The notes under the pieces are model-generated. The model saw only the letters and a list, made by a program, of their open reading frames with translations. It did not search any database and was not told the DNA's origin. The translations under genes were made by a program, and so were the position numbers. Shown here one piece after another: positions 1 through 36,171 of a stretch of 64,000 nucleotides of DNA. The DNA is from Phycisphaeraceae bacterium (GTDB lineage Bacteria > Planctomycetota > Phycisphaerae > Phycisphaerales > UBA1924), in the NCBI GenBank assembly GCA_019636515.1, contig JAHBXI010000001.1:806001-870000 (forward strand), given 5' to 3'. Position 1 is the stretch's first letter, and the number at the start of each line of letters is the position of its first letter.

Positions 1-29
1 CCACCCGCGGATGCCGTGCCGAAGACTCA

Positions 30-185
30 GCACCCATCTTCAAAGGCGTGGACAAAGGCGAAGAAGTCCTCGATATCGACGAACCCGGACTGGTCAAAGT
101 CGGCATCGTCGCCGCCGAGTTCAAAGGCCGTGACGAAGGCAATGTAATCCTCGAAGTCAACGAATCCCGAACGATCAAAGTCGGC
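30..185 (-). repeat. Paired EF-hand (dockerin-like) C-terminal tail, copy 1
   Basis: The last 52 codons of the frameshifted secreted protein encode two loops, DFDRSGFVDFED and DFDQSGFVDIED, 28 residues apart, each followed by a short helix (AFVTAFE, AFVHAFE). The protein ends in GC. Related tails end five other proteins in this window. Confidence 0.85.
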
Positions 186-944
186 GGGGCGCCACGTCTC
201 GAAAACCGAGGCGACGGGAATGGAAGATGTCTCACCCTCGTCGTTGATCGCCCTCACACCCCAGTAGTACTCGGTGCAGTGATCGAGGATCCCCGGTGGA
301 AGGTGCAGGGTGGTCTGTTCCGTCACGTCGGCCCAGAGAGCGGGCTCGAGCGAGGGACTTTGAGAAATCGTGACGGCGTAGAGGACCGCGTCGGCGGATG
401 GAGACCATGCAAGTTCGGGCGTGAGGGGGATCCCGAGGGAGACATCGGCGGGAGAGAACAATTCGAACGTACCCGGCGGGGCGACGGCTACCCAGTCGAT
501 GGTGACCTCGGCGTGGCCGTATCCGGGAATGGGAACTCCCATCTCGTCACCGAAGTACACCATGTACGTGGCGTTGAAATCGCCGGTGACGGCGGTCGCG
601 TACCAGTTGTGGAGCATGGAGCCGGACCACTGGATACGCGGGGCCGAGCCGTCGGTCGAGAAGATCGGTGAGAAGGTCCCCTGGTTCATCATGGTCCCGC
701 CGCTGTAGGACCTGATCGCAGGCGACACGTCGGACTGCTCGATCCAGAGAAGGGCGTTGGTGGGGGGAGACCAGAAACCCTCGACCATCCAGCCATACTG
801 GGCGTTGTACATGACTCCGTTGAGCACGGAGGCGTCTCCGGTGTAGGTTTCGCCGTAATTTCGCATGATCGGCATGTCAACGTGATGATCGACCATGACG
901 TACAGATCCACGCCGTCAAATGAGACCATAAGATGCTTCATCGG

Positions 945-952
945 CCCCCCCC
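945..952 (-). repeat. G8 homopolymer at a reading-frame break
   Basis: There are eight G on the coding strand, between the signal peptide and the mature part of the secreted protein. A tract of seven G would restore one frame. Homopolymers of this kind slip in replication and are also common sites of sequencing error. Confidence 0.9.
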
Positions 953-1078
953 ATCTTGGGATTGGTGGCCACGGCGCTTCCGGAGAGCATCCAGGCGGCG
1001 ACCAGCAACGATGAGAGGCGTTGGCATGAATAGTGACGTGACATCTTATATTCTCCATATTGAGGCAACAACGACGGG

Positions 1079-2208: not shown

Positions 2209-2254
2209 GGAACGTGGAACTCGGCTGGATGGGGAGCGGGCGGGCAGGCACGGA

Positions 2255-3096: not shown

Positions 3097-3551
3097 CCGG
3101 TGCGAATCGAGACCCCCGCTATTGCCAACGCGACCGAAAGCAGCGTCACCAACCAGGCATGGCGTGTGAATCGGCCCAGGGTGGCCATGGACAACTTCGG
3201 AAGCAAGCGGTGGGTGGCGTGCGTGGCGAGTACGACAATGGCGATCAGGAGGGCGACTTTGGCCAGGACCAGGTGAGCGGGGTGCGTCGGCGTGGTGAAG
3301 ATGGAAGGCCATCCACCGATCCATCGGGAGGCGAGGATTGGGCCGGTCACCACCTGCACGGCCAGGGCCGCCAATCCGATCCTCCCGAATGACCGCTCGA
3401 AATTCCGAACCGGGGTGACGTCTCCCTGACCGCGGGCCTGGGGTATCACGACGGCAAGAAGGACCACGTGCCCGCCGATCCAAACGGAGGCTCCCAGGAC
3501 ATGGGCGATGAGCAGCACCTTGTCGATCACGGCCGCGTGACTCCGTGGCAT
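3084..3551 (-). CDS. CopD-like four-helix membrane protein
   Basis: A 155-residue protein with about four membrane segments: VLLIAHVLGASVWIGGHVVL, a central helix around IGLAALAVQVVTGPIL, VLAKVALLIAIVVLATHATH, and LVTLLSVALAIAGV. The His and Trp-Gly pattern in the first helix resembles CopD/DUF2269-type membrane proteins linked to copper or haem. The ATG at 3551 is preceded by GGAAGG; a GTG at 3575 is also possible. The start overlaps the end of the RIC gene and the end overlaps the lipoprotein start. Its place in the nos operon suggests copper or electron-transfer support. The assignment is by pattern only. Confidence 0.65.
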   Translation of the reverse strand: MPRSHAAVIDKVLLIAHVLGASVWIGGHVVLLAVVIPQARGQGDVTPVRNFERSFGRIGLAALAVQVVTGPILASRWIGGWPSIFTTPTHPAHLVLAKVALLIAIVVLATHATHRLLPKLSMATLGRFTRHAWLVTLLSVALAIAGVSIRTGWLL

Positions 3552-4339
3552 GTCCCGCCTTCCGCTTGGGAGCACGTCCCGTCGGGGTCCAGAACATTCC
3601 CCATCTCATGGCGTTGGGAAGCGCCGGCTTCGGCCCTGATGCCCGCGGGGAAAAGGATGTTGTTTTCCTTGTGAATGTGATGCCTGGTATCGGCCTCGAA
3701 CTCGCGGAGAATGGTGAGCAGCGCGACGACCGATCCGCACGCTCCGGCGGGAGTGGTGTAGTCCCGCGTGATGGCTCGAATGCGGGCGAAGCCCTCGGCG
3801 ACGGACTGGTGGTCGTGGACCATGCAGTCGATCGGGCGTCGGACGCTCCAGGGGGGGCCGATGTGGATGGCTCCGGCCTGCTCAAGCCTGCGAAGCCAGG
3901 GGAACAAGACCCTCTCCTCGCGGACCATGTGGTCGATCATCTCCTCGCGGAGTTGGGTGATGACGGCGGCAAGTTCCGCGTATCGCGGGTCCGAGTGGCC
4001 GTGAGCGGATACGACGCGATCGACCAGAGGGCCGAGACTCTCAAAGATCTCCCGGGCGCGGATATGGTGAACGGCCTCGATATGCTCGCACAACTGACTC
4101 ATGGTCATGGCAGCGGGGTCCGGCTCGGACGGCGTGTTCACCGTGGCGTCTGGCGCGGGTTCACTGGCGGCACCGATGATGTCCAGGATCTCGACGCCGG
4201 CACGCCGGCACGCCTGGCTGAGCGACTCGCCGCCGTGGCAGCAGTAGTCGATGCCGAGGCGATCGAAAACCGGGATCAGGTCAGGCCGTGAGACGGCAAG
4301 GCCGCCGACGGACGCGTTGGAGTCAAGGGTGGGGTTCAT
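3527..4339 (-). CDS. ric: RIC/ScdA/YtfE-type di-iron Fe-S cluster repair protein
   Basis: A 270-residue protein. The N-terminal DUF542 (ScdA_N) domain has the diagnostic DYCCHGGESLSQAC at about residues 31-44. A hemerythrin-like di-iron domain follows, with His/Glu pairs (CEHIEAVHHIRAREIFE, EEMIDHMVREERVLFPW, CMVHDHQSVAEGF, HHIHKENNILFP). The family repairs Fe-S and di-iron centres damaged by NO or oxidants. The start overlaps the stop of the upstream Rrf2 gene as ATGA. Its linkage to an NsrR-like regulator and N2O reductase fits a nitrosative-stress role. A Cys-containing tail (TCSQAEGGTCHG) after the domain is not part of the usual core. Confidence 0.92.
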   Translation of the reverse strand: MNPTLDSNASVGGLAVSRPDLIPVFDRLGIDYCCHGGESLSQACRRAGVEILDIIGAASEPAPDATVNTPSEPDPAAMTMSQLCEHIEAVHHIRAREIFESLGPLVDRVVSAHGHSDPRYAELAAVITQLREEMIDHMVREERVLFPWLRRLEQAGAIHIGPPWSVRRPIDCMVHDHQSVAEGFARIRAITRDYTTPAGACGSVVALLTILREFEADTRHHIHKENNILFPAGIRAEAGASQRHEMGNVLDPDGTCSQAEGGTCHGVTRP

Positions 4340-4843: not shown

Positions 4844-5341
4844 TCAGTCGTCTTCCCCGCGCTGGCGGGCGAGCACGCGTCTGGCACGCGCGGCGGAGAT
4901 CGCCGGTTCGTCGAGAATCTCGCCGCCGTGGATGGCGTGAAGGGCCTGAGCGTCAGCCCTGGCGGCAAAGGCGACTATGCCGGTCCCCATCGGGGTATGG
5001 AGGGAGATCGGATCGGCGTAGAAAAAGACGGCGTCGGCGGCCCGGATCCAGGCGCGCGTGCCGTGGTCATGGACGAACCGATCGATAACCGTGACGGCGG
5101 CGGGGTTCTCCCGGAGGTCATCGAGCATGCACCCGATATCATCGAAGAGCCGGTACGAGCGGCGCCCGCGATCCTCGACGAGGGTGGCGCTGGAGCATCG
5201 GTCTTCCATGATGATCATGCCGCACTGGGCGCATTGGTCCCGCCCGAGTCGCAGTTCCGGGGGTCCCGTACGTTCCCTTTGGTCGCAGGCCGTGAGCATG
5301 GTGACGGCGCATGCAAGGGCGGTTTGGAACCGGCGTTTCAT
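4844..5341 (-). CDS. nosL: NosL copper chaperone lipoprotein
   Basis: A 165-residue protein. The lipoprotein signal ends MLTAC and is followed by CAQCGMIIMED, the Cys-x2-Cys-Gly-Met copper site of NosL. NosL is an outer-periplasmic Cu(I) chaperone for assembly of the NosZ CuZ site. The ATG at 5341 overlaps the stop of nosY (ATGA) and has AGGAGG upstream, so an in-frame extension to 5410 is unlikely. It is the last classical nos gene in this operon before the Rrf2-ric pair. Confidence 0.93.
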   Translation of the reverse strand: MKRRFQTALACAVTMLTACDQRERTGPPELRLGRDQCAQCGMIIMEDRCSSATLVEDRGRRSYRLFDDIGCMLDDLRENPAAVTVIDRFVHDHGTRAWIRAADAVFFYADPISLHTPMGTGIVAFAARADAQALHAIHGGEILDEPAISAARARRVLARQRGEDD

Positions 5342-6222
5342 ACGGGAGACCTCCTTGCGAGCAGCACGGCCGCGGCGGCGAGGGGAATGACGACCCAGGC
5401 GAAAAGGCATACACCAAAGATGAGGTGAAGTCGTGGCCCGTGCTCATCGGCGGCGTACAGGCCCGCGGGACCAAGCACGTCGAGGGTGGCATCCACGGCA
5501 TGGAGCGACCACATCTTGAAGACCTGGAGCGGGTTCATGAGCGAGAGGGCGAAGAGTTCCTCGATGCGCAGCCGCAGGGCAACGACACCGGCCATGAGTG
5601 CCAGGTCGCTCACGAGCACCAGCGCAAGCCACACGAACACGGCGGCGCCCAGCGCGACCGACGCCCGCCTGGAGAGGACGGACAGGAGCATTCCGAGGCT
5701 GAGCATGCCAAGCGCCAGCAGAAGCGAGAGAGCGGCGAGCCAGAGGACGCTGGCGGGCCTGGCGGCCACGCCTTTCCACGCGAGGATGGCGGCGCAGACT
5801 CCCAGGCCCAGCATGAGGCAGGCGGCCAGGGCACCGGCCAGACCTGCGTATTTTCCCGCGAGGACTTCGGTCCGGGAAACCGGCTGTGCAAAGAGGTAGG
5901 CGAGCATGCCGCGTTCGCGTTCGGAGGCAATCGAAGAGGCCCCCGCGGTGAGCGCCATGAGCGGGACGACGAGCAGGACAAGATTGATGAGCCCGGCGGT
6001 GGTTCGGCCGAAGCCCGACAGGCCCGTGCCGCCGGTTCCGGCGGCGGAGACGAACGAAACGGCCAACCCCAGGACGGCGAAGGCGAGGGTGTACAGGATG
6101 AACCATCGACTGCGAACGGCATCGCGGAGTTCGCGTCCGGCGATGGTGAGGATATTTCTCCACGCGCGGGGCGGTGCCGGGATCGACAGGTCGCGTGGAT
6201 GGGCGGTGAGAGCAACGCTCAT
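5338..6222 (-). CDS. nosY: NosY ABC transporter permease
   Basis: A 294-residue ABC-2 type permease with about six membrane segments (for example LYTLAFAVLGLAVSFVSA, LINLVLLVVPLMALTAG, LFGVCLFAWVVI-like last helix). The motif ASSIASERERGMLAYLFAQP is typical of NosY. With NosF and NosD it forms the transporter complex needed to mature the CuZ centre of N2O reductase. Its start overlaps the nosF stop as ATGA and its stop overlaps the nosL start, so all three are translationally coupled. Confidence 0.94.
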   Translation of the reverse strand: MSVALTAHPRDLSIPAPPRAWRNILTIAGRELRDAVRSRWFILYTLAFAVLGLAVSFVSAAGTGGTGLSGFGRTTAGLINLVLLVVPLMALTAGASSIASERERGMLAYLFAQPVSRTEVLAGKYAGLAGALAACLMLGLGVCAAILAWKGVAARPASVLWLAALSLLLALGMLSLGMLLSVLSRRASVALGAAVFVWLALVLVSDLALMAGVVALRLRIEELFALSLMNPLQVFKMWSLHAVDATLDVLGPAGLYAADEHGPRLHLIFGVCLFAWVVIPLAAAAVLLARRSPV

Positions 6223-7148
6223 GGGAGCACCTCGGCGGCCGGTTGGCCTGCATCCCCGGTGGCTGGCGGAGCGCCGGGCGTGGCCTGTGTCGGCGCGGGA
6301 AGGATCTCAAAGTCATCGACGGCGATGCTGGCATCGGCGAGGATTCGAAAGGGAGCGGCCTTGCGGTCGGGATGAACACCGACGAGGATGCCCTCGCCGT
6401 TGAGCCGTGGATCGAAGCCGACCGCGCGGAGTTCGCGGATGGCGATGGGCCTGGCATCGTCTCGCATAAGCAGGTGGAGGACACATCCGGTGGATGCCCG
6501 GGCGAGGAAGTCGCGTGTCGGAGCGATCGAGGTGATGCGTCCGAGACTCATCTCGGCGACGCGGCGCGCAAGGGCACCGACTTCCTCGGGACGGTGAGAA
6601 GCAAAGAGCATGGTGCGTCCCTCACCCGAGAGCCGCTCGAGGAGACGGACGAACTCGCTTCGGCCGACGGCATCGAGGCTCGCGGTCACCTCATCGAGAA
6701 TGAGTATCCTGGGGTCACCCAGAAGCGCGATGGCCAAGGCGAGACGCTGCTTCATGCCGCCGGAAAGTTCACGGACCCGCTTGGACTCATGTCCGGAAAG
6801 GCCGACGTTGCCCAGGGCGATGGCTGGATCGGGGTGTCCGATGCCCTTGAGACGTGCAAAGAATACAACCGCCTCGGCGACCTTCATCTCGTCATGGAAG
6901 GCCAATTCCTGCGGGACGTAGCCGACGAGCATCCTCGCCTGCTTGCCGCGGCGAAGCACGTCCAGCCCGTTGATGGAGATGTTGCCCTTGAATCGCAGGA
7001 GCCCCAGGAGGCATCGTATCAGCGTGGTTTTTCCGGCTCCGTTGGCGCCCCAGAGGGCGACGCTGTCGCCCGGAGTTAGTTCGAGACACGCCTCATTCAC
7101 GGCGGCGTATCGGCCGAACCTCCTGGTGACATGTTCGATGCGGATCAT
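6219..7148 (-). CDS. nosF: NosF ABC transporter ATPase
   Basis: A 309-residue ABC ATPase. Walker A is GANGAGKTT (residues 34-42), signature ELSGGMKQR, Walker B ILILDEVTASLD, and the H-loop lies in ASHRPEE. About 80 residues extend past the ATPase core and end in a Pro/Ala-rich tail, as in other NosF proteins. It powers the NosDFY complex. ATGA overlaps join it to nosD upstream and nosY downstream. Confidence 0.94.
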   Translation of the reverse strand: MIRIEHVTRRFGRYAAVNEACLELTPGDSVALWGANGAGKTTLIRCLLGLLRFKGNISINGLDVLRRGKQARMLVGYVPQELAFHDEMKVAEAVVFFARLKGIGHPDPAIALGNVGLSGHESKRVRELSGGMKQRLALAIALLGDPRILILDEVTASLDAVGRSEFVRLLERLSGEGRTMLFASHRPEEVGALARRVAEMSLGRITSIAPTRDFLARASTGCVLHLLMRDDARPIAIRELRAVGFDPRLNGEGILVGVHPDRKAAPFRILADASIAVDDFEILPAPTQATPGAPPATGDAGQPAAEVLP

Positions 7149-9309: not shown

Positions 9310-9380
9310 GCGAGGCTCCTTGCCGTGACGTCTCGCGGGTAGCGCGAGGGCCTGGTCGGCGGCGTATGGAAGAACAAGGC

Positions 9381-9408
9381 CCGGGCCGGGCGTGTGGGCC
9401 CGACCCGG
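9381..9408 (-). terminator. Strong hairpin between nosZ and the NosB-like gene
   Basis: Arms 9381-9391 and 9398-9408 pair over 11 bases with one mismatch and a six-base loop. On the coding strand it follows the nosZ stop by about 20 bases and precedes the T-rich CCTTGTTCTTCC. It could be a partial terminator or a 3' stabiliser that lets nosZ mRNA exceed that of the maturation genes. Confidence 0.45.
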
Positions 9409-9427
9409 ACACGGGTAACCATCACGG

Positions 9428-11530: not shown

Positions 11531-11596
11531 GTTGAAACTCCACGTACCGAGGCGTCGTGACGATCCAACGAGGATCGCGGCGGCGCCGGGTGGCTA

Positions 11597-20235: not shown

Positions 20236-20883
20236 TCAGCAGCCAAACTCGAAGGCGATGACGAAGGAGGTGAAATCGTCGGTATCAACAAAGCCCGTCC
20301 CGTCGATATCGCACGCCTCATCTCCATTCTCGAAGGCGATGACAAAGGCGGTGAAATCGTCGGTGTCGACAAAGCCGGACCCGTCAAAGTCCGAACGGCA
20401 GGCGGCGGACACAAAGATCAAGCCGTGGTCAAGGTTGATCCAGCCGACGTTCTCTCCCCAGGCGTACCCGCGGAACCGGCGCTCGTCGAAGTCAAACCGG
20501 GCCGGGTTCGACGGCGTCGCCAAGGCTCCGCCGCTGAAGTTGACCCATCCGATGTTCTCGCCCCAGGCGTAGCCGCTGAGATTTCCGCTCGCGGAATCGA
20601 CGTTGACACCGTAATTGCTCCCGTTGGTGTTCGCGTACCGGCCGTTGCCCGATCCCAGCGAGAGCCAGCCGACGTTTTCGCACCAGGCATACCCGGCGAG
20701 GTAGCCGAGGGTGTCGTTGACGGCCGCCCCGGAAAGGGCGGAATTGGCGTCTCGCCAGTTCATGAACCCGATGTTCTCACCCCAGGTGTACTTGTTCACG
20801 GTGTCCACATTGGACTGCGCCATCGCGGCGGACGAGACAAGTCCAACGGAAAGGCACACGGCAAATCGGATGGCATTCGGCAT
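20236..20883 (-). CDS. Secreted protein of WGEN repeats with dockerin-like tail
   Basis: A 215-residue protein. A clear signal peptide (IRFAVCLSVGLVSSAAMAQ) is followed by four copies of an aromatic repeat, YTWGENIGFMNW, GYAWCENVGWLSL, GYAWGENIGWVNF and GYAWGENVGWINL. It ends with two EF-hand-like loops (DFDGSGFVDTDD, DIDGTGFVDTDD) and a C-terminal EFGC. The ATG at 20883 has GAGGAG upstream and is preferred to one five codons earlier. The WGEN repeat occurs in uncharacterised secreted proteins; no activity is known to me. The tail is shared with five other proteins here. Confidence 0.85.
   Translation of the reverse strand: MPNAIRFAVCLSVGLVSSAAMAQSNVDTVNKYTWGENIGFMNWRDANSALSGAAVNDTLGYLAGYAWCENVGWLSLGSGNGRYANTNGSNYGVNVDSASGNLSGYAWGENIGWVNFSGGALATPSNPARFDFDERRFRGYAWGENVGWINLDHGLIFVSAACRSDFDGSGFVDTDDFTAFVIAFENGDEACDIDGTGFVDTDDFTSFVIAFEFGC
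20239..20394 (-). repeat. Paired EF-hand (dockerin-like) C-terminal tail, copy 2
   Basis: The last 52 codons of the WGEN protein: DFDGSGFVDTDDFTAFVIAF, then DIDGTGFVDTDD with FTSFVIAFE, ending FGC. The two halves are 27 residues apart. Confidence 0.88.
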
Positions 20884-21064: not shown

Positions 21065-23737
21065 TCAGCACCCTTCCTCGAAGGCCAGGACAAAGGAGGT
21101 GAAATCCTCGATGTCAACAAAGCCCGATCCATCGAAGTCGGCGGATTCATCGCCTTCCTCGAAGGCCAGGACAAAGGCGGAGTAGTCCTCGATGTCAACA
21201 AAGCCCGACCCGTCGAAATCGGCGGTGATGATCCTAACCGTGACCGAGGCGCATCCCGACGAGCCGCAGGAGTTCTCCCGCCGGGCGAAATAGGTCGTGG
21301 TCGTCGAGGGGGAGGCGATGAGCAGAGGAGTGCCGGTCCCGACCAGAGACCCGCCGCATGACCCGGAGTACCAGCGGATCACTCCGCCGGTACCTCCCGT
21401 GGCCGTGAGCGTGATGTCGGGGATTTCCCCCGCGCAGAAACCGGACGCGCTGACCGAGGCCCCGATCGGCGGGGTGGGGAGCGGGGTCACGGTGACCAGC
21501 ACGCTGCCGCAGCCGGCGCTGACCTGGCCGTCGCTGGTGCGCCGGGCGCGGGCGTGGTAGGTCGTCGTCGCCGCGGGCGTGACCGACAAGGGGTTACCGG
21601 TACCGATGAAGCCCGATCCGCAGGAGGCGTTGTACCAGTCCACGACGATCCCCGTGCCGACCGACGCGGAGAGCGAGGTCGATGAGCCTTCGCAGACGGG
21701 GTTTGGAGTCGCGGTCACGTTGGTGGGATCGGGCGGGGGGCTCGAGGCGTTGACGGTGATCTTCGCGTTGTTGATATCGAAGAAGATGTTGCCGACGGCC
21801 TCGACCTTGATCCGGCCGTTGACGGTGTTGAGGTTCGGGACGGTGATCACCTCCGACCCGTCGTTGGGGGTATTGCTCGCCAGGACGATCGGGAAGGTCA
21901 ATCCGTCGTCGGTTGAGAAGAGGATGTTGACCGTCGAGCAGTTGACGGGCGAGGCGTTGGTGTTGGCGACGTTCCAGGAGACGGCCTGCGCGGCATTGCC
22001 CGTCCAGGTGGTGGCGGTGTTGGCGGTCGTGATGGAGAAGGGCCCGGCCGAGGTGGTGACGGTGACGCTGCGGTCGCTGAAGGCGGTGCCTCCCTCGCCC
22101 GAGCGGTTGTCTCGGACGGTCAGGCGCCACTTCACGCTGCGGTTGGTCTGGGCCCACTTCTCGCCCAGCGTGTTGGTCCCCGTACGGATGTTTGCAAGTT
22201 GCGGGACCAGGCGGGTGGGATTGGTCGTCGGGGTAAAAGGCCTGAACAAGGGAGATGCCCCGTTGTCGGCGGCGGCGGCGGTCTGGGCGGCGCCCAGGTC
22301 GCGTTCCTCCCAGGAGAAGGTCAGGGCGTCTCCGTCGGGGTCGCTGAAACTGGTGGGAGTCAGGAAGAACGGGGTCTGCTGCGGGATGGTGAAGGTGGTC
22401 GCGCCCGCGTTGACCAGCGGGGTGTTGTTCGAGGTGGTCGTGTTCGCGGAGCAGTTCTTGCCGTTGCCGTTGGTGATGAAGTTGGTGATTTCGGCGATCG
22501 AGCCGAAGCCGAAGTAGGGGATGCTGTTGTTGGCGATGTTGTCGGAGCCGCAGATCCCCGCGTAGCCCATGATGGTGACGGCCGATCCGATCTCGTAGGC
22601 CGTCGAGGCGTTGCGGTTGCCGCTGCACGACCCGCCGGTGCCGTTGAAGTTGTGGTTGGAGCCGAACTGGTGGCCCATCTCGTGGGCGACGTAATCGATG
22701 TAGAACGCATCGCCGACGGGGTTTGGCAGCCCGGTGACGCCCCAGGCCTTGCTCGACCCGCAGACCACGCCCAGGCCCGCGACGCCGCCGCCGCCGGTGG
22801 AGAAAACGTGGCCGATGTCGTAGTTGGCGCTGCCGATCTGGGTGTTGCAGGCGGTGACGTTCTGGTTCAGCATCGCCCCGCCGTCGTTGTTGGAATAGGG
22901 ATCGGTCGCGGCGTTGGTGTAGACGACGTTGGTGTTGTTGGGGACCAGTTCGAGGCGCACGCCGACCTCGGTCTCGTACACGCCCGTCACGCGGTTGATC
23001 GCCGTGACGATCGCGGCCTGCGCGCCCGCGACCGTCCCGCCGAACTTGGCCGCGTACTCACCGGTGCAGGCGTTGGCGAGGCGGTACTTGCGGCGGATGA
23101 CCGCGGCGCGGGGGGTCCAGCCGTCGGCCAGTTCGTTCCTGGCCATCAGCCTCGCGTCGGGAACGGTGCAGGTAAAGCCGTGGATGTTGTCGAGGTCCTT
23201 CTTGAAGTGAGAGGTGTAGACGACGACGTTGTCCTTGAAGTACGGGTCGATGTACCACGCCCCATCCTCGGCGGGGGAAAGGACCTGGGCGTGGAAGCCC
23301 AGCGGCGTGACATCCAGGCGGATCGTGGCCTGGGGCTCATCCACGCCCTGTCCGCGGTAGGTGCGGATGTCGGGGAACATCGCGCCAAGGTCCGGGTGCA
23401 TGACCGGCGCTTCGACGATGGCGAAGGTGGCAATGGTTCCGTCCGGCCGCGGCAGGGAGAGCATGAGTGGATCGGCCGCGTCGGGGGTGTCTTCCATGGG
23501 TACGCCGGCCAGGGCGTTGCGCATCGCCGCGAGGTCGATGACCACGCCGCGGTACAGCCGAGGCTGGACCCAGGGCTCCTCGTTGGCGTCGTTGGCGATC
23601 GGCTCTTCGAAAGTGGTCCAGGCTACGGGACCGGAGGCGGGCCAGCGGTGCTGGCGAGCCGAGGCGGTCGTTGAGGCGGACAGCGCCCAGAATACGGCCA
23701 ACGCCACAAAGAATCCGGTGATGCCGCGGCCCTGCAT
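21065..23737 (-). CDS. Secreted reprolysin-like metalloprotease with Ig-like domains and dockerin-like tail
   Basis: About 890 residues. A signal peptide (ITGFFVALAVFWALSASTTASA) and a propeptide-like region come first. The metzincin zinc site HEMGHQFGSNHNF (HExxHxxGxxH) then follows, with a Met-turn candidate at TIMGYAG, as in M12B/reprolysin-like enzymes. Beta-sandwich repeats come next (VNAGATTFTIPQQTPFFL; TNTATTWTGNAAQAVSW; two Ig-like PxxPVCEGSSTSLSAS and ASGFCAGEIPDITLTA modules). It ends with two EF-hand loops and EEGC. The ATG at 23737 is the sensible start; the open frame continues upstream to 24157. It is likely exported to act on extracellular protein. Confidence 0.9.
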   Translation of the reverse strand: MQGRGITGFFVALAVFWALSASTTASARQHRWPASGPVAWTTFEEPIANDANEEPWVQPRLYRGVVIDLAAMRNALAGVPMEDTPDAADPLMLSLPRPDGTIATFAIVEAPVMHPDLGAMFPDIRTYRGQGVDEPQATIRLDVTPLGFHAQVLSPAEDGAWYIDPYFKDNVVVYTSHFKKDLDNIHGFTCTVPDARLMARNELADGWTPRAAVIRRKYRLANACTGEYAAKFGGTVAGAQAAIVTAINRVTGVYETEVGVRLELVPNNTNVVYTNAATDPYSNNDGGAMLNQNVTACNTQIGSANYDIGHVFSTGGGGVAGLGVVCGSSKAWGVTGLPNPVGDAFYIDYVAHEMGHQFGSNHNFNGTGGSCSGNRNASTAYEIGSAVTIMGYAGICGSDNIANNSIPYFGFGSIAEITNFITNGNGKNCSANTTTSNNTPLVNAGATTFTIPQQTPFFLTPTSFSDPDGDALTFSWEERDLGAAQTAAAADNGASPLFRPFTPTTNPTRLVPQLANIRTGTNTLGEKWAQTNRSVKWRLTVRDNRSGEGGTAFSDRSVTVTTSAGPFSITTANTATTWTGNAAQAVSWNVANTNASPVNCSTVNILFSTDDGLTFPIVLASNTPNDGSEVITVPNLNTVNGRIKVEAVGNIFFDINNAKITVNASSPPPDPTNVTATPNPVCEGSSTSLSASVGTGIVVDWYNASCGSGFIGTGNPLSVTPAATTTYHARARRTSDGQVSAGCGSVLVTVTPLPTPPIGASVSASGFCAGEIPDITLTATGGTGGVIRWYSGSCGGSLVGTGTPLLIASPSTTTTYFARRENSCGSSGCASVTVRIITADFDGSGFVDIEDYSAFVLAFEEGDESADFDGSGFVDIEDFTSFVLAFEEGC
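21068..21223 (-). repeat. Paired EF-hand (dockerin-like) C-terminal tail, copy 3
   Basis: Two nearly identical 81-base halves (27 residues): DFDGSGFVDIEDYSAFVLAF and DFDGSGFVDIEDFTSFVLAF, ending EEGC. The close DNA match between the halves suggests recent duplication or gene conversion. Confidence 0.92.
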
Positions 23738-25506: not shown

Positions 25507-27963
25507 TCAGCACAATTCGCCGAACTCGTAGGCCACGACGAACGCGTGGTAGTCTTCGAGGTCGACAAAGCCCGAATTATCGAAGTCCGCCATCGGGTGC
25601 CCCATCTCGAAGTACCAGACAAAGAGATCGAAGTCATCGGTGTCGATAAACCCGCTGTTGTCGATGTCGGGGCAGAAGTCCGCCGGGGGGAACATGGCTC
25701 TCCAGGCCCCTCGTCCGTAGGTGCCGGCAATCGCGAACTGGTATCCCTGGTCGATCTGGATATCGCCGATATTGACGTTTGGAAGGTCCGCGCAGTTTTT
25801 CTCCCACGTGACGCCCCCGTCGGAGGAGAAATAGATCCCCGCGCCCGAGCCGACGATCATGGGCAGGGTCCGGACGCTCCAGTCGACGGCCAGGGCGGTG
25901 ACGGCGACCCCGACGGGGAGGCTCCCGGTCATGTCCTCCCAGTCCACGCCGGCGTTGAAGGTCCTGAAGATCCGGCCCCCATCATCGTTTTGCAGAGAGA
26001 GGTACGCGATCGTCGGGCTGACGGGATCAACGGCGATGTCGCTGACTCTTCCGGCGGGCAGGTTCTGGTATCGGTCGTTCCAAACGCCTCCGATGATGTT
26101 GCTGGTGTAGTAGACGTTGCCGTTGGAACTTCCGGTGTAGACGTGTTTGGAGTCCCCCGCGCACGCCGCGATGCTGGTCAGCGCCCCGCCGCCGGCGATG
26201 CCGTTGCCGCTGCGGTCGGTCCAGGTTGGCGGGTTCGCGGTCGCGTCGGGCGTATGCCACACGCGATCGGTTCCGACCATGAGGGCCTTGGGGTTGTCAC
26301 CCGCTCGGACGACCGGCGCGATGAATTCGGACAACTCTCCCTGCCAGCCGCCGGTGATGTCGGTCTCGCCGTTGGCGTCGTGGCGGGAAAGATTGGGGAA
26401 GGGTCTTCCTGAAGGCTCATCCACCGCGACCGACGTGGTGTAGAGGATGCCCGCGGCCCCGTCGTAGGCTCCGTACCCGCCGTCGCCCGCGGTCACCTGG
26501 TCCCACTCCTGGGCCAGGTTGATGCGCTCGGGCGCGCCGTTGTCCTGCGTGCCGGCGATCAGGTCCTCCACGGTCCAGTCGTTGAGTGATATCTGGTAGA
26601 TCTGGGTGACGCCCAGCGTGGTGTTGGCGCTCTGCCACGTGATGAGCGGGGCGGTCTGGCATTTCCAGATGCCGCCGTCGTTTCCTTCCCAGATGGTCCC
26701 GTCCGGGCCGAAGGCCATGGCGTGGTGATCTGGATGGAGTTGCGACCCGTCGAGGCCGCGAGCCCACTCTTCCCAGGTGTCGCCAGCGTCGGCGGAGCGT
26801 ATCACGCCGTTCACGGCGTATCGGTCATCAACACCCCCGCACCAGACCACCTGAGGATCGGTGGGGTCGATGGCGACGTAGGCGTCGTACAAGCCCTGGG
26901 GGCCTGGGAAATCGGGTGTGTTCGCGAGTTTGGTGAAGGTGTCGCCCCCATCGGCGCTCTTGAAAAGCCCTTCCAGCGACTCGGCCGGATTGATGACCGC
27001 GACGTACAGCACGGAAGAGTCCGACGGGGCGACGTCCATGACGATCCGGGCGATGTCGTCGGCGTCAAGATCAAAGTCACGCAAGGCGAACGTGTCCCCT
27101 CCGTCGGTCGTGAACATCAACCCCAGCCCCACGACGCCGATGTACACGGTCCTGGGATCGGAGGGACTCATGCGGATGCACGACGCGGGGCGATCGGTCA
27201 TCTCCTCCCACGTGACGCCGCGGTCGAGGGAGCGGTGGCATCCGCCGGTACCCGTGATCCAGATTTCATCGGTGTCATCGGGGTTGATCACGATCCCCGA
27301 GCACGTCGGGCCGACCTTGTCGGCGCCGGCAACCTTGGCCCACGTAAGCCCGGCATCCTCCGAGCGGAACAGGCCGTCACCCCTGGAGAGCATGGTGTAC
27401 TCTCCGGTGCCGGCGTAGACGGTGTCGGGGTTTCCGGGTTCGAGGATCACGGCGCCGTGATTCAGCGTCGAGAGGCCATCGGTCAGCGGGACCCACGTGT
27501 CTCCCTTGTTGGTGGTCTTCCAGATTCCGCCCGAGGCGGACGCGATGTAGCAGATGTCCGCGTCGGTCGGGTGCGGGGCGATGGAGATCACGCGACCGGA
27601 ACAGTCGGCGTTCTCGCTCCAGAACTCCTCGCGGATTGGCCTGGGTCCGATGAACGACCATGTCAATTGACAGGCCCGGGCCTTGTCCTGTCCTGGAGTC
27701 CATCCGGGCACGACTCCGCCGACAACGACCGGGTGCCCCGGCGGGGGAGGACCGCCCACCTCGTACCCCTTTTTCACTACCTTTTCATGCTTTTTCCTGG
27801 GAAGCGGACGGCTTTCGACCTGCTCTCCCGCGTCGAGGTTGCCCAAAGCGTCAACGGGATCGGGAGGGGCCGAACACCCCGGCGAACCCAGGCACGCCAA
27901 ACTCGCCAACCCGCCCATCGCCACAAGGTGAGCCGCCACCGGCCGGTATCGGCGCATTTTCAT
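25507..27963 (-). CDS. Secreted BNR/sortilin-type propeller protein with dockerin-like tail
   Basis: About 818 residues. The N-terminal export signal has possible lipobox Cys (LASLAC, SPGC), neither ideal. The body has repeated Asp-box/BNR motifs (ASGGIWKTTNKGDTW, RSEDAGLTW, TTDGGDTF, KSADGGDTF, RSADAGDTW, SSDGGVTW), as in sortilin-like ten-bladed propellers and glycoside hydrolases of the BNR type. It ends with two EF-hand-like loops (DIDNSGFIDTDD, DFDNSGFVDLED) and FGELC. The start MKMRRYRPVAAH at 27963 is chosen over one 13 codons upstream. No catalytic residues identify an enzyme. Confidence 0.85.
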   Translation of the reverse strand: MKMRRYRPVAAHLVAMGGLASLACLGSPGCSAPPDPVDALGNLDAGEQVESRPLPRKKHEKVVKKGYEVGGPPPPGHPVVVGGVVPGWTPGQDKARACQLTWSFIGPRPIREEFWSENADCSGRVISIAPHPTDADICYIASASGGIWKTTNKGDTWVPLTDGLSTLNHGAVILEPGNPDTVYAGTGEYTMLSRGDGLFRSEDAGLTWAKVAGADKVGPTCSGIVINPDDTDEIWITGTGGCHRSLDRGVTWEEMTDRPASCIRMSPSDPRTVYIGVVGLGLMFTTDGGDTFALRDFDLDADDIARIVMDVAPSDSSVLYVAVINPAESLEGLFKSADGGDTFTKLANTPDFPGPQGLYDAYVAIDPTDPQVVWCGGVDDRYAVNGVIRSADAGDTWEEWARGLDGSQLHPDHHAMAFGPDGTIWEGNDGGIWKCQTAPLITWQSANTTLGVTQIYQISLNDWTVEDLIAGTQDNGAPERINLAQEWDQVTAGDGGYGAYDGAAGILYTTSVAVDEPSGRPFPNLSRHDANGETDITGGWQGELSEFIAPVVRAGDNPKALMVGTDRVWHTPDATANPPTWTDRSGNGIAGGGALTSIAACAGDSKHVYTGSSNGNVYYTSNIIGGVWNDRYQNLPAGRVSDIAVDPVSPTIAYLSLQNDDGGRIFRTFNAGVDWEDMTGSLPVGVAVTALAVDWSVRTLPMIVGSGAGIYFSSDGGVTWEKNCADLPNVNIGDIQIDQGYQFAIAGTYGRGAWRAMFPPADFCPDIDNSGFIDTDDFDLFVWYFEMGHPMADFDNSGFVDLEDYHAFVVAYEFGELC
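25510..25671 (-). repeat. Paired EF-hand (dockerin-like) C-terminal tail, copy 4
   Basis: The most divergent copy: DIDNSGFIDTDDFDLFVWYF then DFDNSGFVDLEDYHAFVVAY, ending FGELC. Asn replaces the common Gly in each loop. Confidence 0.85.
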
Positions 27964-28256: not shown

Positions 28257-30638
28257 ATGCCCATCCGTTTGAACCAGTCGTTCGGACTTGATCGCCTCTC
28301 CTGGGAGCCGACGGCGTGTCGGCCGATGATCGGCTTGGCTCGCCAACCCCGTGGACCGCGCCGGTTCGGGTCCCGCGGGTGCTGGCGAGGGGTGAGCGTG
28401 GGGATACTGACCGCCGGGCTGTGGATGTTGGCTTCGGGCGCTGGGGAGGCTCGTGCGGGCCTGATTCCTCCCGCGAACGAGCCGGTGAAAGGGACCGAGC
28501 GGGGCACCTTGGCGCTGTACGTCGAGAAGCCCGGCGACATGGAGTTTTCGGGCTTTCTGACGGTTCGTCCGCTGCAGGAGCATCGCACGTCGGCGTCGGC
28601 AATCCTGCGGGGGCGGGACGCGGCGGCGCGTGAGCGGCTGGCGGGCAAGGTCGCGCGGTACTTCCCGGAGGTTGATGAATACCTGGTGCGGGTGCCGTCG
28701 GGGATGGCCCGTGGCGAGGGAGAGAACGCCCTGGCGTCGGAGTTGATCTCGACGGGCGACTACGAGTACGTGATCCCGGACTGGATCGTGTACCCGATCG
28801 CGATCCCGAACGATCCGTTGTACAACAGCCAGTGGCATCATCCGAAGATCGGATCGCCGCTGGCGTGGGACTACACGCTGGGAAGCACGACGATCATCTC
28901 GGCCTCGACGGACACGGGGATCGACGTCAATCATCCGGACCTGGCGGCGCACCGCGTGCCGGGGTTCCACGCCCCGTCGAATACGGCCGAAGTCAATGGC
29001 GGGCCGGTGACGGATGTGAACGGTCACGGAACGCACGTGGCGGGCTGCGCGGCGGCGATCGGGAATAACGGCGTGGGCGTAACGGGTGTGAATCAAAGAG
29101 CCCGGATCATGATGGCCCGCGTGACGGACTCATCGAACGGCAGCGCGAGCATCTCGAATATCCTGCTGGGCGCTCGCTGGGCGGCGGACAACAACGCGAA
29201 GGCGATCGGGTCGAGTTACTCGGGTGTGTCGTCCTCGACGATCCAGACCAGCGGGGCGTACATCAAGGGCAAGGGGGCGCTGTACCTGTACGCGGCGGGG
29301 AACGACAACGTGAACCTTTCAACGTTCGATTACCCGGACGTGATCGTGGTCGGGGCCTCGGACTCGGGGGACAACAAGGCCGGCTTCTCGGCGTACGGGA
29401 AGGCGGTCGATGTCTTCTCCCCCGGGGTCAACATCCTTTCCACGGTGGTCGGCGGGGGGTACCAGTCCTGGAGCGGGACGAGCATGGCGACGCCCGTGGC
29501 CAACGGGGTGATCACGATGATCTGGTCGGCGAACCCTTCGCTGACGGCGACGCAGGTGGAGAACATCCTGTTCTACTCGTGCGACGACCTTGGCTCTCCG
29601 GGGAACGACGACACGTTCGGTTGGGGTCGGGTGAACGTGGGCCGTGCGGTGCAGTGGGCGGTCGGGCCGGCGCCGGCCGTGGCCGTGGCCGACACGGCGC
29701 TGGCGTTGACGGGGCTGGCGAGGGCGGTCGACGTACTCGCCAACGACGTCGCGCTCGACGGCGGATCGATCTTGATCACGGGGCACTCGGCGACGAGCGT
29801 TCGCGGCGGAACGATCGTGAAATCGACGGGGACCGGCCCGGAGGGTCGTGACCTTCTGGTGTACACCGCGCCGGGTACGCCCGGGGCGGACTCGTTCACG
29901 TACACGATCCAGGGATCCTCGGGAGGCCCATCGACCACGACGGTGTCGATCTCGGTGGACTCATCGGCGGGGTACCAGGACCCGGCGAACCCGACAAGCA
30001 CGCAGCCGGGCGTTGACGTGTCGTACTACGACCTGGTGAACCCGTCGGTCCTGCCTGATTTCTCGCTTCTGACGCCGTACAAGACGGACGTGATGCCCCG
30101 CATCAATTTCCAGTCGACCAACGGGGTCTATTCCACGAGCGAGCGGCATACGGACGTTGGCGCGGTGTACGAGGGGTACATCGTGCTTGGGGAGCCGGCG
30201 GAGTACACGTTCTACGCGAACTCCGACGACGGGTCGAAGTTGCACATCGGCGGGACGCTCGTGGTGAACAACGACGGGCTGAAGAGCGCGTCCCCGCTGT
30301 GGAAGAGCATGGTTGAAAAATCAGGGAAGATCAAACTCAAGGAGGGCGCGCACCGGATCCGGGTCGAGTTCTTCGAGCACACGGGCAGCGCGGGACTGAT
30401 CGTGTCGGTCGCGGGTGGCGGCATGGACAAGGTGGTGGTCCCGGCGTCGATGTTCGTGCGCGACGCGGTCTCGTGCCCGGCGGACTTCGACGGTTCGGGA
30501 TTCGTGGACGCCGAAGACTTCAGCGCGTTCGTGGCGGCGTTTGAGAGCGGGGATGAGTCGGCGGACTTTGACGGGTCGGGGTTCGTGGACATCGAGGATT
30601 ACTCGGCGTTCATCCTCGCGTTCGAGGGCGGGTGCTGA
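28257..30638 (+). CDS. Secreted subtilisin-like (S8) protease with PA14 domain and dockerin-like tail
   Basis: About 793 residues. It has an unusually long N-terminus before a hydrophobic export segment (VSVGILTAGLWMLASGAGEA), then a propeptide. The S8 catalytic Asp is in STDTGIDVNHPDL, His in NGHGTHVAG, and Ser in SGTSMATP, so the triad is complete. A tandem-95/cadherin-like segment follows (AVDVLANDVAL...GADSFTYTIQG), then a PA14-like domain (EGYIVLGEPAEYTFYANSDDGSKLHI). It ends with DFDGSGFVDAED, DFDGSGFVDIED and EGGC. AAGGA lies upstream of the ATG at 28257. The ORF stays open back to 27660, but that part antisenses the BNR gene. Divergent to the BNR protein. Confidence 0.92.
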   Translation: MPIRLNQSFGLDRLSWEPTACRPMIGLARQPRGPRRFGSRGCWRGVSVGILTAGLWMLASGAGEARAGLIPPANEPVKGTERGTLALYVEKPGDMEFSGFLTVRPLQEHRTSASAILRGRDAAARERLAGKVARYFPEVDEYLVRVPSGMARGEGENALASELISTGDYEYVIPDWIVYPIAIPNDPLYNSQWHHPKIGSPLAWDYTLGSTTIISASTDTGIDVNHPDLAAHRVPGFHAPSNTAEVNGGPVTDVNGHGTHVAGCAAAIGNNGVGVTGVNQRARIMMARVTDSSNGSASISNILLGARWAADNNAKAIGSSYSGVSSSTIQTSGAYIKGKGALYLYAAGNDNVNLSTFDYPDVIVVGASDSGDNKAGFSAYGKAVDVFSPGVNILSTVVGGGYQSWSGTSMATPVANGVITMIWSANPSLTATQVENILFYSCDDLGSPGNDDTFGWGRVNVGRAVQWAVGPAPAVAVADTALALTGLARAVDVLANDVALDGGSILITGHSATSVRGGTIVKSTGTGPEGRDLLVYTAPGTPGADSFTYTIQGSSGGPSTTTVSISVDSSAGYQDPANPTSTQPGVDVSYYDLVNPSVLPDFSLLTPYKTDVMPRINFQSTNGVYSTSERHTDVGAVYEGYIVLGEPAEYTFYANSDDGSKLHIGGTLVVNNDGLKSASPLWKSMVEKSGKIKLKEGAHRIRVEFFEHTGSAGLIVSVAGGGMDKVVVPASMFVRDAVSCPADFDGSGFVDAEDFSAFVAAFESGDESADFDGSGFVDIEDYSAFILAFEGGC
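30480..30635 (+). repeat. Paired EF-hand (dockerin-like) C-terminal tail, copy 5
   Basis: The last 52 codons of the subtilase: DFDGSGFVDAEDFSAFVAAF then DFDGSGFVDIEDYSAFILAF, ending EGGC. It is closest to the tail of the metalloprotease although on the other strand. Confidence 0.9.
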
Positions 30639-32984: not shown

Positions 32985-33027
32985 GGAGTCAGGATAGCGG
33001 CGGGGACGGGCCAACGGCCCACTCGGC

Positions 33028-33777
33028 TCAGCACATGGTCATGCCGCCGTCAACACAGATGGTCTGCCCGGTGAGATACCCGGCCTGGTCGGAAGTCACG
33101 TAGGCGACGGCGTCGGCGATGTCCTGGGCGACGCCCAGTCGCTTGACGGCCATGAGCGAGAGGACGTGCTCCTTGACCTCGGGGGGGAGGTTGTCGGTCA
33201 TGTCGGTCTGGATGAACCCCGGGGCGATGAGGTTGCAGGTGATGCCCTTGGAACCCAGTTCGCGGGCGATGGTCTTGGTGAGGCCCGCCAGTCCGGCCTT
33301 GGCCGCGGCGTAGTTTGCCTGTCCGGCGTTTCCGACGACGCCGGAGGTGCTGCCGATGTTGACAATACGTCCGAACTTTCCGCGCATCATGGAGCGTGCG
33401 GCGGCGCGGATGGCGACGAAGGCGGAGGAAAGGTTGGTGTTCAGGACCAGGTCCCAGTCCTCGTCGGACATCCGCAGGGCGAGCCCGTCGCGGGTGATGC
33501 CCGCGTTGTTGACGAGGATGTCGATTCTCCCGAACTCTTCGGCGACGGACTCGACCATGGCGGCCAGGGCGGCGCGGTCGGCGACATCCACGGCCCGTAC
33601 GGCGGCCTTTCCGCCGTCGGCTTCAATCGTGGATCGCAGGTCGCCCAGGGGACCTTCGGAGCGGGCGACCAGGACCACAAGCCGGCCATCGGCGGCCAGT
33701 CGCTGGGCCGTGGCGCGTCCTATCCCGCGGCTTGCCCCCGTCACAATCGCCACCCTCTGCGAGACTGCCTGACCCAT
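33028..33777 (-). CDS. fabG: 3-oxoacyl-ACP reductase-like SDR (FabG type)
   Basis: A 249-residue protein. VTGASRGIGRA, DILVNNAGITRDGLALRM, Ser in NIGSTSGVVGN, YAAAKAGLAGLTK and the ending GQTICVDGGMTM follow FabG closely. It would reduce 3-oxoacyl-ACP in fatty-acid synthesis. No other fab gene is adjacent, so a FabG-like role in another pathway remains possible. Confidence 0.88.
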   Translation of the reverse strand: MGQAVSQRVAIVTGASRGIGRATAQRLAADGRLVVLVARSEGPLGDLRSTIEADGGKAAVRAVDVADRAALAAMVESVAEEFGRIDILVNNAGITRDGLALRMSDEDWDLVLNTNLSSAFVAIRAAARSMMRGKFGRIVNIGSTSGVVGNAGQANYAAAKAGLAGLTKTIARELGSKGITCNLIAPGFIQTDMTDNLPPEVKEHVLSLMAVKRLGVAQDIADAVAYVTSDQAGYLTGQTICVDGGMTMC

Positions 33778-33849
33778 GCGTGGCCCTCCATCGGAAGGCG
33801 ATGGTAGGACCCGGCGGGCGGGTCGAGGCCGGGGGAACGCGTCCGCGTG

Positions 33850-36171
33850 TCAGCACGGATCCTGGAACGCCAGGACGAACTCGGTGAAATCGTCGGTGTC
33901 GACAAAGCCCGACCCGTCAAAGTCGGCGTCGTCCCCGCCGATGACAAACGCCTGGACGAACGCGTCGAAGTCGTCGGTGTCAACGAAGCCTGAGCGATCG
34001 AAATCGGCGGGATCCGAAACGATGACGGTCGAGACGGGCATGAGGACGACTCGGCGGCCCAGGCCTTCGATCGTCACGGTGAGCGTTCCGGACCCGCAAT
34101 CGGACCCGGCCGTCACGGGAAAGGCAATGGTTCCGTCGCCCTGGAGCGTGGGCGAGCCGACCGAGACGATCCCACTTGATGAGGCGACCGAGACGGAAGC
34201 CCCGTCGAGGGATACCTCGTCGAGTTTCCAGTCGCGGGCGCGGATGGTGAGCATGGCGGGAGAGGCTTCATCGGCGTGCAGGACGGGCGGATCGAGCGTG
34301 GCGGTGGATCGCACGGCGTCGGGCTTGCCGACCAGGTCGGCTCTCCAGGCGTCGAACATGGACTGGAGGATGAAGACCGGGTCGGGGTCCGCGTTGATCT
34401 TGTTGGCGACGTTGAAGGTCATGAAGTAGTCGCCGCCGGCGAGGCCGGAAACCGGGTTGAAACCACCGCCGGCCACTCCCTGCATGATGCAGACGATCGT
34501 GGAGGAAACGCGGACGACCGCGTCAAGGAGGCCGTCGCCGTCCATGTCGGCGGCTCGCATGGCGTTTGGGGCAAAGCCGATGGGATACCAGACCCCTGGT
34601 TGAAGGGTCCCGTCTCCATTGCCCTTGAAGACGTACAGGCGCGACGCGGTGCGCTGCAGGGCGAGCAGGTCGAGTTTGCCGTCGGCGTCGAGATCTCGCA
34701 GGATCGGGTTTCCGGGAGCGGCGACCACGGAGTGGGTGGACAAGGTGAAGGTGCCATCGGGGTTCTGGACAAAGACCTTGACGAGCGGGTCGCCGTTGGC
34801 GGTGATGGCCAGGTCGATCCTTCCGTCGCCGTTGAGGTCGCCCGCGTCGATGCCGACCGGAGGCGCGGCGAAGGAAATGACCGGCCCGGCGACAAACGTG
34901 GCATCCCCGTTGTTGCGGAACATCGCAACGGTACGGGCCGCGGCATTGGTGACGATGAGGTCGAGGTCACCGTCGCCTTCAAGGTCCGCCAGGACCGGGT
35001 ACTGCGAACCATCGCCGGTGGAGAGGGTCGCGGCGAGCGTCATCACGCCCTGGCCGTCGTTGATGAAGATCGAGCAGGTATCGCCGGTGAAGTTGGCAAC
35101 CACGAGGTCGATGGTCTGGTTGCCGTCAAGATCCCCCACGGCCAGGCCCTGCGGCCCGGCGCCCGTCGGATGTACGACGGGCGAGGCGAAGGTCCCGTCG
35201 CCGTTGCCAAGCAGGATGGCCACGGTGCCCGCGGCGTTGTTGATGACGGCGGCGTCGAGGCGTCCGTCGGCGTTGAAATCCGCGACTTCGAGATCGCGTC
35301 CGGTAAAGCCCAGGGTGGTGGGGATGAGCGGGGCCAGGGTGGCCTGGCGGCCGGGCGTGGTGGTATTGAGCAACACGCCCAATCCTCCGTTGCCGCAGAC
35401 CGCGACGTCGGGCCTGCCGTCGCCGTTGAAATCGCCCGGGACGGCGGCGTTGCCGAAGTTGGTGGCCCGGTAATTGCCGTTGCTTCCTTCGCGGTCACCG
35501 GCTCGTCCGATGAGCATGTAGGCGATGTGGGCGGACTTAAAGGTATCCGGGAGGGTGGTGCAGCCGGTGGGAAAGGCGGGTGAGCATGAGCATCGCCCGT
35601 CGCCGCCCCAGGCTCGCGCGGCCTCCATCGAGGCCATGAGTTTGGCGGGTATATCGCCGGGGGTGTTGTGGATTGCTTCAATCGCTTTCTCGACGACCAG
35701 AGGCCCCCAGAGGACGTTTCCCTGGACGGCGAAGACAAGGTCGCCGTCGGATCCGGTGGCTCCTCCTTTCCAGGCGCCCGCGCCGGTGCCGGAAAAAGTG
35801 GCCGCCCGACCGAGGACATCGGCGATGCCGTACTGCTTGTTCTGGTGGCTGGTATCGAACACCGAGAGAGCGGCGAGGATCTCGTCGGGTGATGACCCGG
35901 CGTACAGGCCATCACGAACAAGAGTCCGGTTGGCTCCGGTCGAATCAACAAAGGATTGGGCGGTGGCGGCCCCGACGCCAACGACCAGCACGGGCGTGTT
36001 GGCCTGAAGATCGAAATTGGTCAGGCAGGTCGCTGAACCGAGCGCGACTTCCCCGGTTCGGGTGTCGCAGATGATGATGGACCATGTTGCACCCGCCGAT
36101 GCCGCGAGCACGGACACGACCGACGCGACCGCCCAAGCGGCCAGGGCGTGAGTGGAACGGGAACGGTACAT
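33850..36171 (-). CDS. Secreted DUF1028/FG-GAP protein with dockerin-like tail
   Basis: About 773 residues. Signal peptide (LAAWAVASVVSVLAASAGA). A DUF1028 domain (Ntn-hydrolase-like) follows: TWSIIICDTRTGEVALGSAT, ATAQSFVDSTGANRTLVRDG, QGNVLWGP. Seven or so FG-GAP/VCBS repeats with Ca-binding DFNGDGRPD, DFNADGRLD, DLDGNQTID, DLEGDGDLD, DLNGDGRID, DLDADGKLD and DMDGDGLLD come next, predicting an integrin-like propeller. A beta domain and two EF-hand-like loops (DFDRSGFVDTDD, DFDGSGFVDTDD) end it, with QDPC. The start at 36171 is chosen because it begins the signal peptide. Confidence 0.87.
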   Translation of the reverse strand: MYRSRSTHALAAWAVASVVSVLAASAGATWSIIICDTRTGEVALGSATCLTNFDLQANTPVLVVGVGAATAQSFVDSTGANRTLVRDGLYAGSSPDEILAALSVFDTSHQNKQYGIADVLGRAATFSGTGAGAWKGGATGSDGDLVFAVQGNVLWGPLVVEKAIEAIHNTPGDIPAKLMASMEAARAWGGDGRCSCSPAFPTGCTTLPDTFKSAHIAYMLIGRAGDREGSNGNYRATNFGNAAVPGDFNGDGRPDVAVCGNGGLGVLLNTTTPGRQATLAPLIPTTLGFTGRDLEVADFNADGRLDAAVINNAAGTVAILLGNGDGTFASPVVHPTGAGPQGLAVGDLDGNQTIDLVVANFTGDTCSIFINDGQGVMTLAATLSTGDGSQYPVLADLEGDGDLDLIVTNAAARTVAMFRNNGDATFVAGPVISFAAPPVGIDAGDLNGDGRIDLAITANGDPLVKVFVQNPDGTFTLSTHSVVAAPGNPILRDLDADGKLDLLALQRTASRLYVFKGNGDGTLQPGVWYPIGFAPNAMRAADMDGDGLLDAVVRVSSTIVCIMQGVAGGGFNPVSGLAGGDYFMTFNVANKINADPDPVFILQSMFDAWRADLVGKPDAVRSTATLDPPVLHADEASPAMLTIRARDWKLDEVSLDGASVSVASSSGIVSVGSPTLQGDGTIAFPVTAGSDCGSGTLTVTIEGLGRRVVLMPVSTVIVSDPADFDRSGFVDTDDFDAFVQAFVIGGDDADFDGSGFVDTDDFTEFVLAFQDPC
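33853..34008 (-). repeat. Paired EF-hand (dockerin-like) C-terminal tail, copy 6
   Basis: The last 52 codons: DFDRSGFVDTDDFDAFVQAF then DFDGSGFVDTDDFTEFVLAF, ending QDPC. The spacing of 28 residues with GGDDA between loops matches copy 1. Confidence 0.88.

Follow-up and report, generated by a model that had tools for sequence, protein, structure and literature searches.

Six otherwise unrelated proteins of a planctomycete end in the same short tail, which closes on a cysteine, and this raises the question of what the tail is and what its last residue does. The window analyzed here is the whole stretch of 64,000 nt from Phycisphaeraceae bacterium (assembly GCA_019636515.1, contig JAHBXI010000001.1, positions 806,001 to 870,000 of the forward strand). 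A six-frame motif scan found exactly 12 D-x-D-x-[ST]-G loops in the window, which form six pairs, each at the C-terminal end of one ORF (Table 1). The last residue is Cys in all six, four of them ending in GC. The shared paired-loop tail with a closing Cys on six window proteins, first described in the earlier note on these secreted proteins, is real. The spacing given there (27-28 residues, 29 in the BNR protein) needed correction. The loops lie 27 residues apart in all six tails, and the BNR tail differs by two additional residues after loop 2, measuring 53 residues from loop 1 to the end where the others measure 51. Loop positions D1, D3, S/T5 and D12 are occupied in the window tails, from which Ca2+ binding is predicted.

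The carriers differ widely. Pfam domains of four of them are mutually unrelated (M12B reprolysin with Ig_7; S8 with PA14 and Big_9; DUF1028 with FG-GAP; Sortilin/BNR), and no Pfam match above cut-off was found for the WGEN-repeat and FN3-like proteins, the FN3 fold of the latter coming from a predicted model. The FN3 gene is apparently frameshifted, as had been noted: a signal-peptide-like start runs from 1044 down to 916, and the remainder lies in another frame from about 941 down to 27.

Table 1. Tail-bearing proteins of the window and their tails (window positions)
Feature	Position	Strand	Remarks
FN3-like protein, portion past the apparent frameshift	27..941	-	tail 27-191
Signal-peptide-like N-terminus of the FN3 protein, other frame	916..1044	-	
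WGEN-repeat protein	20236..20883	-	tail 20236-20400
M12B reprolysin-like metalloprotease with two Ig_7 stretches	21065..23737	-	tail 21065-21229
Sortilin/BNR propeller protein	25507..27963	-	tail 25507-25677
S8 subtilase, Big_9 and PA14 protein with tail	28257..30638	+	start 28257 likely, by judgement
S8 tail	30474-30638	+	tail-start Cys codon 30474-30476; last Cys codon 30633-30635
DUF1028, FG-GAP and Invasin_D3-like protein	33850..36171	-	tail 33850-34014

Each of the window's six tails hit NCBIfam NF041540 (dockerin_GC, 'GC-type dockerin domain-anchored protein') at E 0.0013 or better, which bears out the product name given in the earlier note; they are members of this family with no sequence difference from it. 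The curated cut-off of 29 bits was passed by four of the six window ORFs in hmmscan, with the BNR (19.1 bits) and DUF1028 (22.3 bits) proteins below it, and by five of the six in the genome search, with BNR again below. At E 0.01, the profile also matched the entire set of 76 aligned tails. Members proved to be many in the host genome, with 69 matches, 64 of them above the cut-off (one only together with its neighbours), and the tail is present on at least 68 (about 68) probably secreted proteins.

Comparisons of fold and sequence point to dockerins, and the predicted model of the tail has the two loop-helix repeats of the dockerin fold. The type I profile PF00404 recognized the tails less readily: it matched 23 of 76 at E 0.01 and none of the six window ORFs at E 0.1, its three matches in the genome include no window tail, and the S8 tail scored 16.9 bits, short of the gathering score of 22.9. 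Cellulosomal type I and II dockerins share the repeats and the fold with the tail. According to the excerpted text of PMC4728124, cellulosomal dockerins carry an intramolecular clasp, in which Tyr-Pro stacking joins the head and tail of the module; in the tails described here, this role likely falls to a disulfide.

The name NF041540 carries no mechanism. To it we add a second Cys that is coupled to the last, a missing cohesin and an exclusion of PEP-CTERM. In the open-licence literature that we searched, we found neither the phrase 'GC-type dockerin', nor papers joining dockerins with PEP-CTERM, nor an earlier printed account of the Cys pair or the PEP-CTERM exclusion.

The second Cys usually stands three residues before loop 1 (hereafter the first Cys). 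In the window, it is found there in the S8 and WGEN tails, the latter with a third Cys directly before loop 2; it stands two residues before loop 1 in the BNR tail, and the FN3, metalloprotease and DUF1028 tails have no Cys just ahead of loop 1. The presence of the two residues is coupled. The C-terminal Cys was absent in none of 389 tail records with the first Cys (records partly shared among sets), and 106 tails of relatives comprised 61 with both, none with the first only, 4 with the last only and 41 with neither. About 100 tails have the last Cys only. A phylogenetic test of the coupling was underpowered, yielding one independent pair on supported branches.

On balance, we favor the reading that the tails are NF041540 dockerin-like modules whose last Cys is likely disulfide-bonded within the protein, and that the module is a predicted docking plug for a surface receptor. 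The last Cys would pair with a Cys of the same protein, usually the first Cys, and this disulfide would staple both ends of the module rather than anchor the protein, as a covalent counterpart of the cellulosomal clasp. The stapled, presumably Ca2+-loaded module may then be the plug that keeps many different exported proteins, enzymes as well as propellers, attached to the cell surface, with a receptor that would not be a recognizable cohesin. In a few architectures that lack the first Cys (FN3 and perhaps Ig_7), a Cys of the beta-sandwich domain ahead of the tail may serve as the partner instead. The FN3-like portion contains exactly two Cys, one in its FN3-like part 82 residues before the end (codon 276-278) and one as the last residue (codon 30-32); the Cys at -82 is constant among FN3-type proteins, but none of these turned up with the first Cys to serve as a control. 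In the DUF1028 protein, the closest upstream Cys lies 81 residues ahead of the last one. The metalloprotease has a CGSSGC motif in its last Ig_7 stretch, upstream of the tail. A moved partner in Ig_7 metalloproteases is not demonstrated, since 29 of the 40 tails having the first Cys likewise show two upstream Cys.

Besides the roughly 100 tails that have the last Cys only, two further results count against the disulfide reading. DsbB and VKOR were found in none of 16 genomes of the host's family, and the Cys parity of tail proteins gave no disulfide signal: 94 even and 94 odd (n=188), 35 and 41 after removal of redundancy (n=76), and 38 and 33 in a stricter set (n=71). An even Cys number can be assigned to all six window proteins, but this depends on mature starts judged by eye and, for BNR, on two early Cys falling in the signal.

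Characterized dockerins act as cohesin partners. In the host genome (94.6% complete), however, we found no cohesin match with PF00963 at E 0.01 and none with a profile of lineage cohesins at E 0.1; PF00963 gave one weak match among the 16 genomes of the host's family. We infer that the receptor, if any, is not a recognizable cohesin, although a highly diverged one might escape both profiles. A partner gene co-occurring with the tails, which the earlier note had hoped to find, did not emerge, and none of cohesin, the lineage cohesin profile, exosortase, sortase, VKOR and DsbB positively tracks them. As far as the excerpted text of PMC6461901 goes, the planctosome hypothesis for freshwater Planctomycetes places a dockerin on an M12B reprolysin_4 peptidase, proposes a non-cellulosomal use and envisages two cohesin proteins, an adaptor and an anchor. 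The window's metalloprotease (21065-23737) is likewise a dockerin-bearing M12B reprolysin peptidase, whereas neither profile detected a cohesin for the adaptor or anchor role in the host genome. Separately, adaptor-like proteins with a cohesin match and, by eye, HYR-like and dockerin-like parts occur in two genomes of family f4.

A missing cohesin, together with the diversity of the carriers, would also suit a tail that has no receptor and acts as a Ca2+-dependent cap, folding last outside the cell and protecting the C-terminus, with the disulfide adding stability. We consider this unlikely: so close a sequence similarity on about 68 proteins would hardly be required for capping alone, the PEP-CTERM-rich genomes of the order lack the tail, and cohesins accompany tails in the two f4 genomes.

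Less likely still, the last Cys would be a sorting, crosslinking or lipid-anchoring tag for a dedicated enzyme, which the dockerin-like part merely presents. The earlier note leaned this way, taking the terminal Cys as invariant. In related genomes, however, the tail Cys is followed by at least one further residue in 55 of 65 cases and is absent from 41 of the 106 tails, and it tracks the second Cys within the domain, never being absent where the first exists. Sortase was found in 0 of 61 genomes, and exosortase occurs in all 61, tail-free ones included, and is therefore uninformative. Such a tag would fit the position of the Cys as the very last residue in 58 of 59 host-genome tails and 205 of 208 homologs having one, its retention without the first Cys at -3 in 8 host-genome tails and in 60 metalloprotease homologs, and the lack of DsbB and VKOR in the host's family. 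Overall, the tag or anchoring reading is weakened, and we do not favor a sorting or anchoring role for the last Cys. Joint action of the two Cys without a disulfide, as metal or cofactor ligands or through two bonds to a receptor, would also fit the coupling, the random parity and the missing DsbB and VKOR, but is quite improbable, as a pair of Cys alone would make a poor metal site and the consensus of alignment A1 has no conserved His or additional Cys near the pair.

We return to the docking plug and its possible place among surface-display systems. PEP-CTERM consists of a short motif, a membrane helix and a basic end. In this system of tag and exosortase, as with the tails, one C-terminal element marks many exported proteins that are otherwise unrelated; the tails differ, as read from their sequences, in being folded loop-helix modules without PEP motif, membrane helix or basic end. 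None of 61 genomes is rich in both. Tail and PEP-CTERM counts correlated negatively in 61 genomes (Spearman -0.27, p 0.03). In 37 genomes, with counts limited to 28 for most of them, the Spearman coefficient was likewise -0.27 but not significant (p 0.11), and a Mann-Whitney test gave p 0.008. The negative tracking lies between families and is absent within them, with at most 81 candidates scored per genome in one count (seven genomes of family f1 reach at least 81) and at most 115 in another. A swap of tail and PEP-CTERM on one and the same protein was not seen among metalloprotease homologs or WGEN loci: a dockerin-like tail was parsed in 109 of 116 metalloprotease homologs and in 64 of the 79 WGEN loci whose ORF is closed (a few look doubtful), the WGEN loci classed as 'other' still include dockerin-like ends missed by the parser, and a crude pattern found no PEP-CTERM-like end in either set. 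The between-family exclusion suggests that the tail substitutes for PEP-CTERM, a known surface-display tag. We speculate, with considerable doubt, that two planctomycete families swapped PEP-CTERM/exosortase display for a mostly cohesin-free dockerin display, with 16 to more than 80 stapled plugs per tail-bearing genome, an undescribed receptor and a staple made without DsbB or VKOR.

The tail-bearing group is poorly studied and represented here mainly by metagenome assemblies. The second Cys makes the role of the last Cys, previously an open guess, directly testable. That the host bears about 68 dockerin-type tails of similar sequence but no cohesin that could be detected means that it either has an undescribed receptor or puts the module to an undescribed use, and the receptor may be of a new kind.

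A six-frame motif scan of the window found 12 EF-hand-like D-x-D-x-[ST]-G loops and no others, which form six pairs, one per ORF end, and a Cys closes each of the six tails, as the earlier note had claimed for six proteins sharing one paired EF-hand-like tail. The two loops of every pair lie 27 residues apart, also in the Sortilin/BNR protein, for which 29 had been given; its two additional residues sit after loop 2. Pfam placed unrelated domains on four of the six proteins and none over the cut-off on two. The product name given in that note (GC-type dockerin) is correct: the tail matches NCBIfam NF041540. This family has 69 matches at E 0.001 in the genome of this bacterium, where the window covers 806001-870000 of contig 1; 64 of them are over the cut-off. 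By a crude hydrophobicity test, 159 of 200 tail homologs having a Met start showed a signal-like start, compared with 1 of 10 other window genes (the NosZ-like protein); export of the tail proteins is predicted only.

Among database records of tail homologs, many without a source name, the named sources were mostly Phycisphaerales or Phycisphaerae. Tail matches were present in 82/198 genomes of the class and 35/61 of the order. All 16 genomes of family f1 carried tails (30 to at least 81 each), as did 13/15 of f4 (16 to 71 each) and only 6/30 of f2, f3, f5 and f26 (1 to 9 each). First-look candidates in f1 numbered up to 224 in a single genome, among G003, G013 and G032, whose sizes are 3.3 to 3.6 Mb.

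Aligned tails start with C-x-x-D-x-D-x-[ST]-G and carry a Cys at the end. When any Cys within six residues before loop 1 was accepted as the first Cys, the relatives (81/117 parsed) gave 45 tails with both, 11 with the first only, 4 with the last only and 21 with neither. In all 11 first-only exceptions, the Cys was never at -3, and we therefore recounted with the first Cys exactly three residues before loop 1 and the second as any Cys from residue 18 of loop 2 onward (where the last helix is coming to its end).

Strict counts of the first Cys (-3) and the last Cys
Set	Both	First only	Last only	Neither	Records
Relatives	61	0	4	41	106/117 loci; 11 unparsed
Own genome (68 of 69 matching tails; BNR, with Cys at -2, scored as last only)	58	0	8	2	68
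Homologs by tail	191	0	17	0	208/209
Metalloprotease homologs	40	0	60	15	115/120
WGEN loci (the 11 with neither have a Cys near, not at, -3)	39	0	14	11	80; 15 unparsed, 1 open end

Of the 389 records with a Cys at strict -3, none lacked the last Cys (the records are non-independent, some being counted in two sets); the last Cys does occur without the first. Because the last Cys of the relatives mostly has one or more residues after it, its final-residue position is a lineage habit and no rule.

The one-way coupling and the non-final last Cys match the prediction of an intramolecular disulfide between the two Cys. Two observations count against this reading: the Cys parity of tail proteins is random, and neither VKOR (0/16, versus 24/61 across the order set) nor DsbB (0/16, versus 5/61) was found in f1 genomes. 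The disulfide would thus need another catalyst or oxidation outside the cell, which would be plausible if both Cys lie where the two ends of the module meet. VKOR and DsbB were absent together in 16/16 f1 genomes, and VKOR was present in 9/9 of f2 and 12/14 of f3. The earlier note suspected a tag for sorting or anchoring, with a partner yet to be found. A C-terminal tag does not predict that a first Cys is always accompanied by the last, nor that the last Cys is mostly non-final in relatives.

Some tails without the first Cys may retain a disulfide partner. FN3-type proteins have a Cys that precedes the C-terminus by exactly 82 residues; it occurs in 9/9 database proteins, in two more from this genome and in the window copy, whose part past the frameshift has no other Cys besides the last; only 2/191 ordinary tails have a Cys there. 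We infer from these positions that the partner has probably shifted into the FN3 domain. In the Ig_7 metalloproteases, a partner Cys may have moved. Two proteins (P0128, P0130) contain multiple EF-hand-like loops together with twelve or more Cys, and their sequences close with CPSCGC or CDTCNC.

Cohesin PF00963 had no match in this genome at E 0.01; it matched 5/61 genomes at that threshold, f1 giving only one weak match below the cut-off. A lineage profile made from ten of 13 stretches matched by PF00963 hit 4/21 f1 genomes at E 0.1 (one strongly, G232) and not this genome. Sortase was found in 0/61 genomes and exosortase in 61/61. Two f4 genomes, G212 and G224 (loci L101, L102, L105, L106, L111 and L112), encode cohesin-matching proteins with HYR-like and dockerin-like parts by eye, some ending in W, which look similar to the planctosome adaptor.

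Other genes in the window
Position	Observed	Reading
1079-2521	ORF with internal prepilin-type hydrophobic stretch (by eye), adjoining the frameshifted FN3 tail gene	
3527-4339	Hemerythrin domain and ScdA_N, beside nos-like genes	Apparent RIC-type protein for iron-sulfur repair
5338-12541	ABC transporter pair, NosD, nos_propeller protein (NosZ-like, 700 aa), cytochrome c	Apparent nitrous oxide reductase cluster
43829-47302	1157-aa SecD/SecF-type export protein, two SecD_SecF_C stretches	Likely SecDF fusion

Already known are the NF041540 family name, dockerins, the clasp (the head-tail contact of cellulosomal dockerins) and the planctosome idea (PMC6461901). To the extent covered by our searches, the coupling of the two Cys and the proposal that they form a disulfide staple are new, as are about 68 dockerin-type tails without a detected cohesin in one genome and the exclusion between tail and PEP-CTERM among families.

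PEP-CTERM proteins numbered 35 to at least 115 per genome in 7/9 genomes of f2 and 51 to 114 in 11/14 of f3, and 1 to 21, 1 to 11 and 1 to 12 in f1, f4 and f5, respectively. With thresholds of our choosing (15 or more tails, 30 or more PEP-CTERM), 29 of the 61 genomes were tail-rich, 18 were PEP-CTERM-rich, none was both and 14 were neither, an exclusion that rests on few independent transitions. Inside f1 and f4, the two counts correlate positively. With moderate confidence, we suggest that the tail and PEP-CTERM are alternative display tags.
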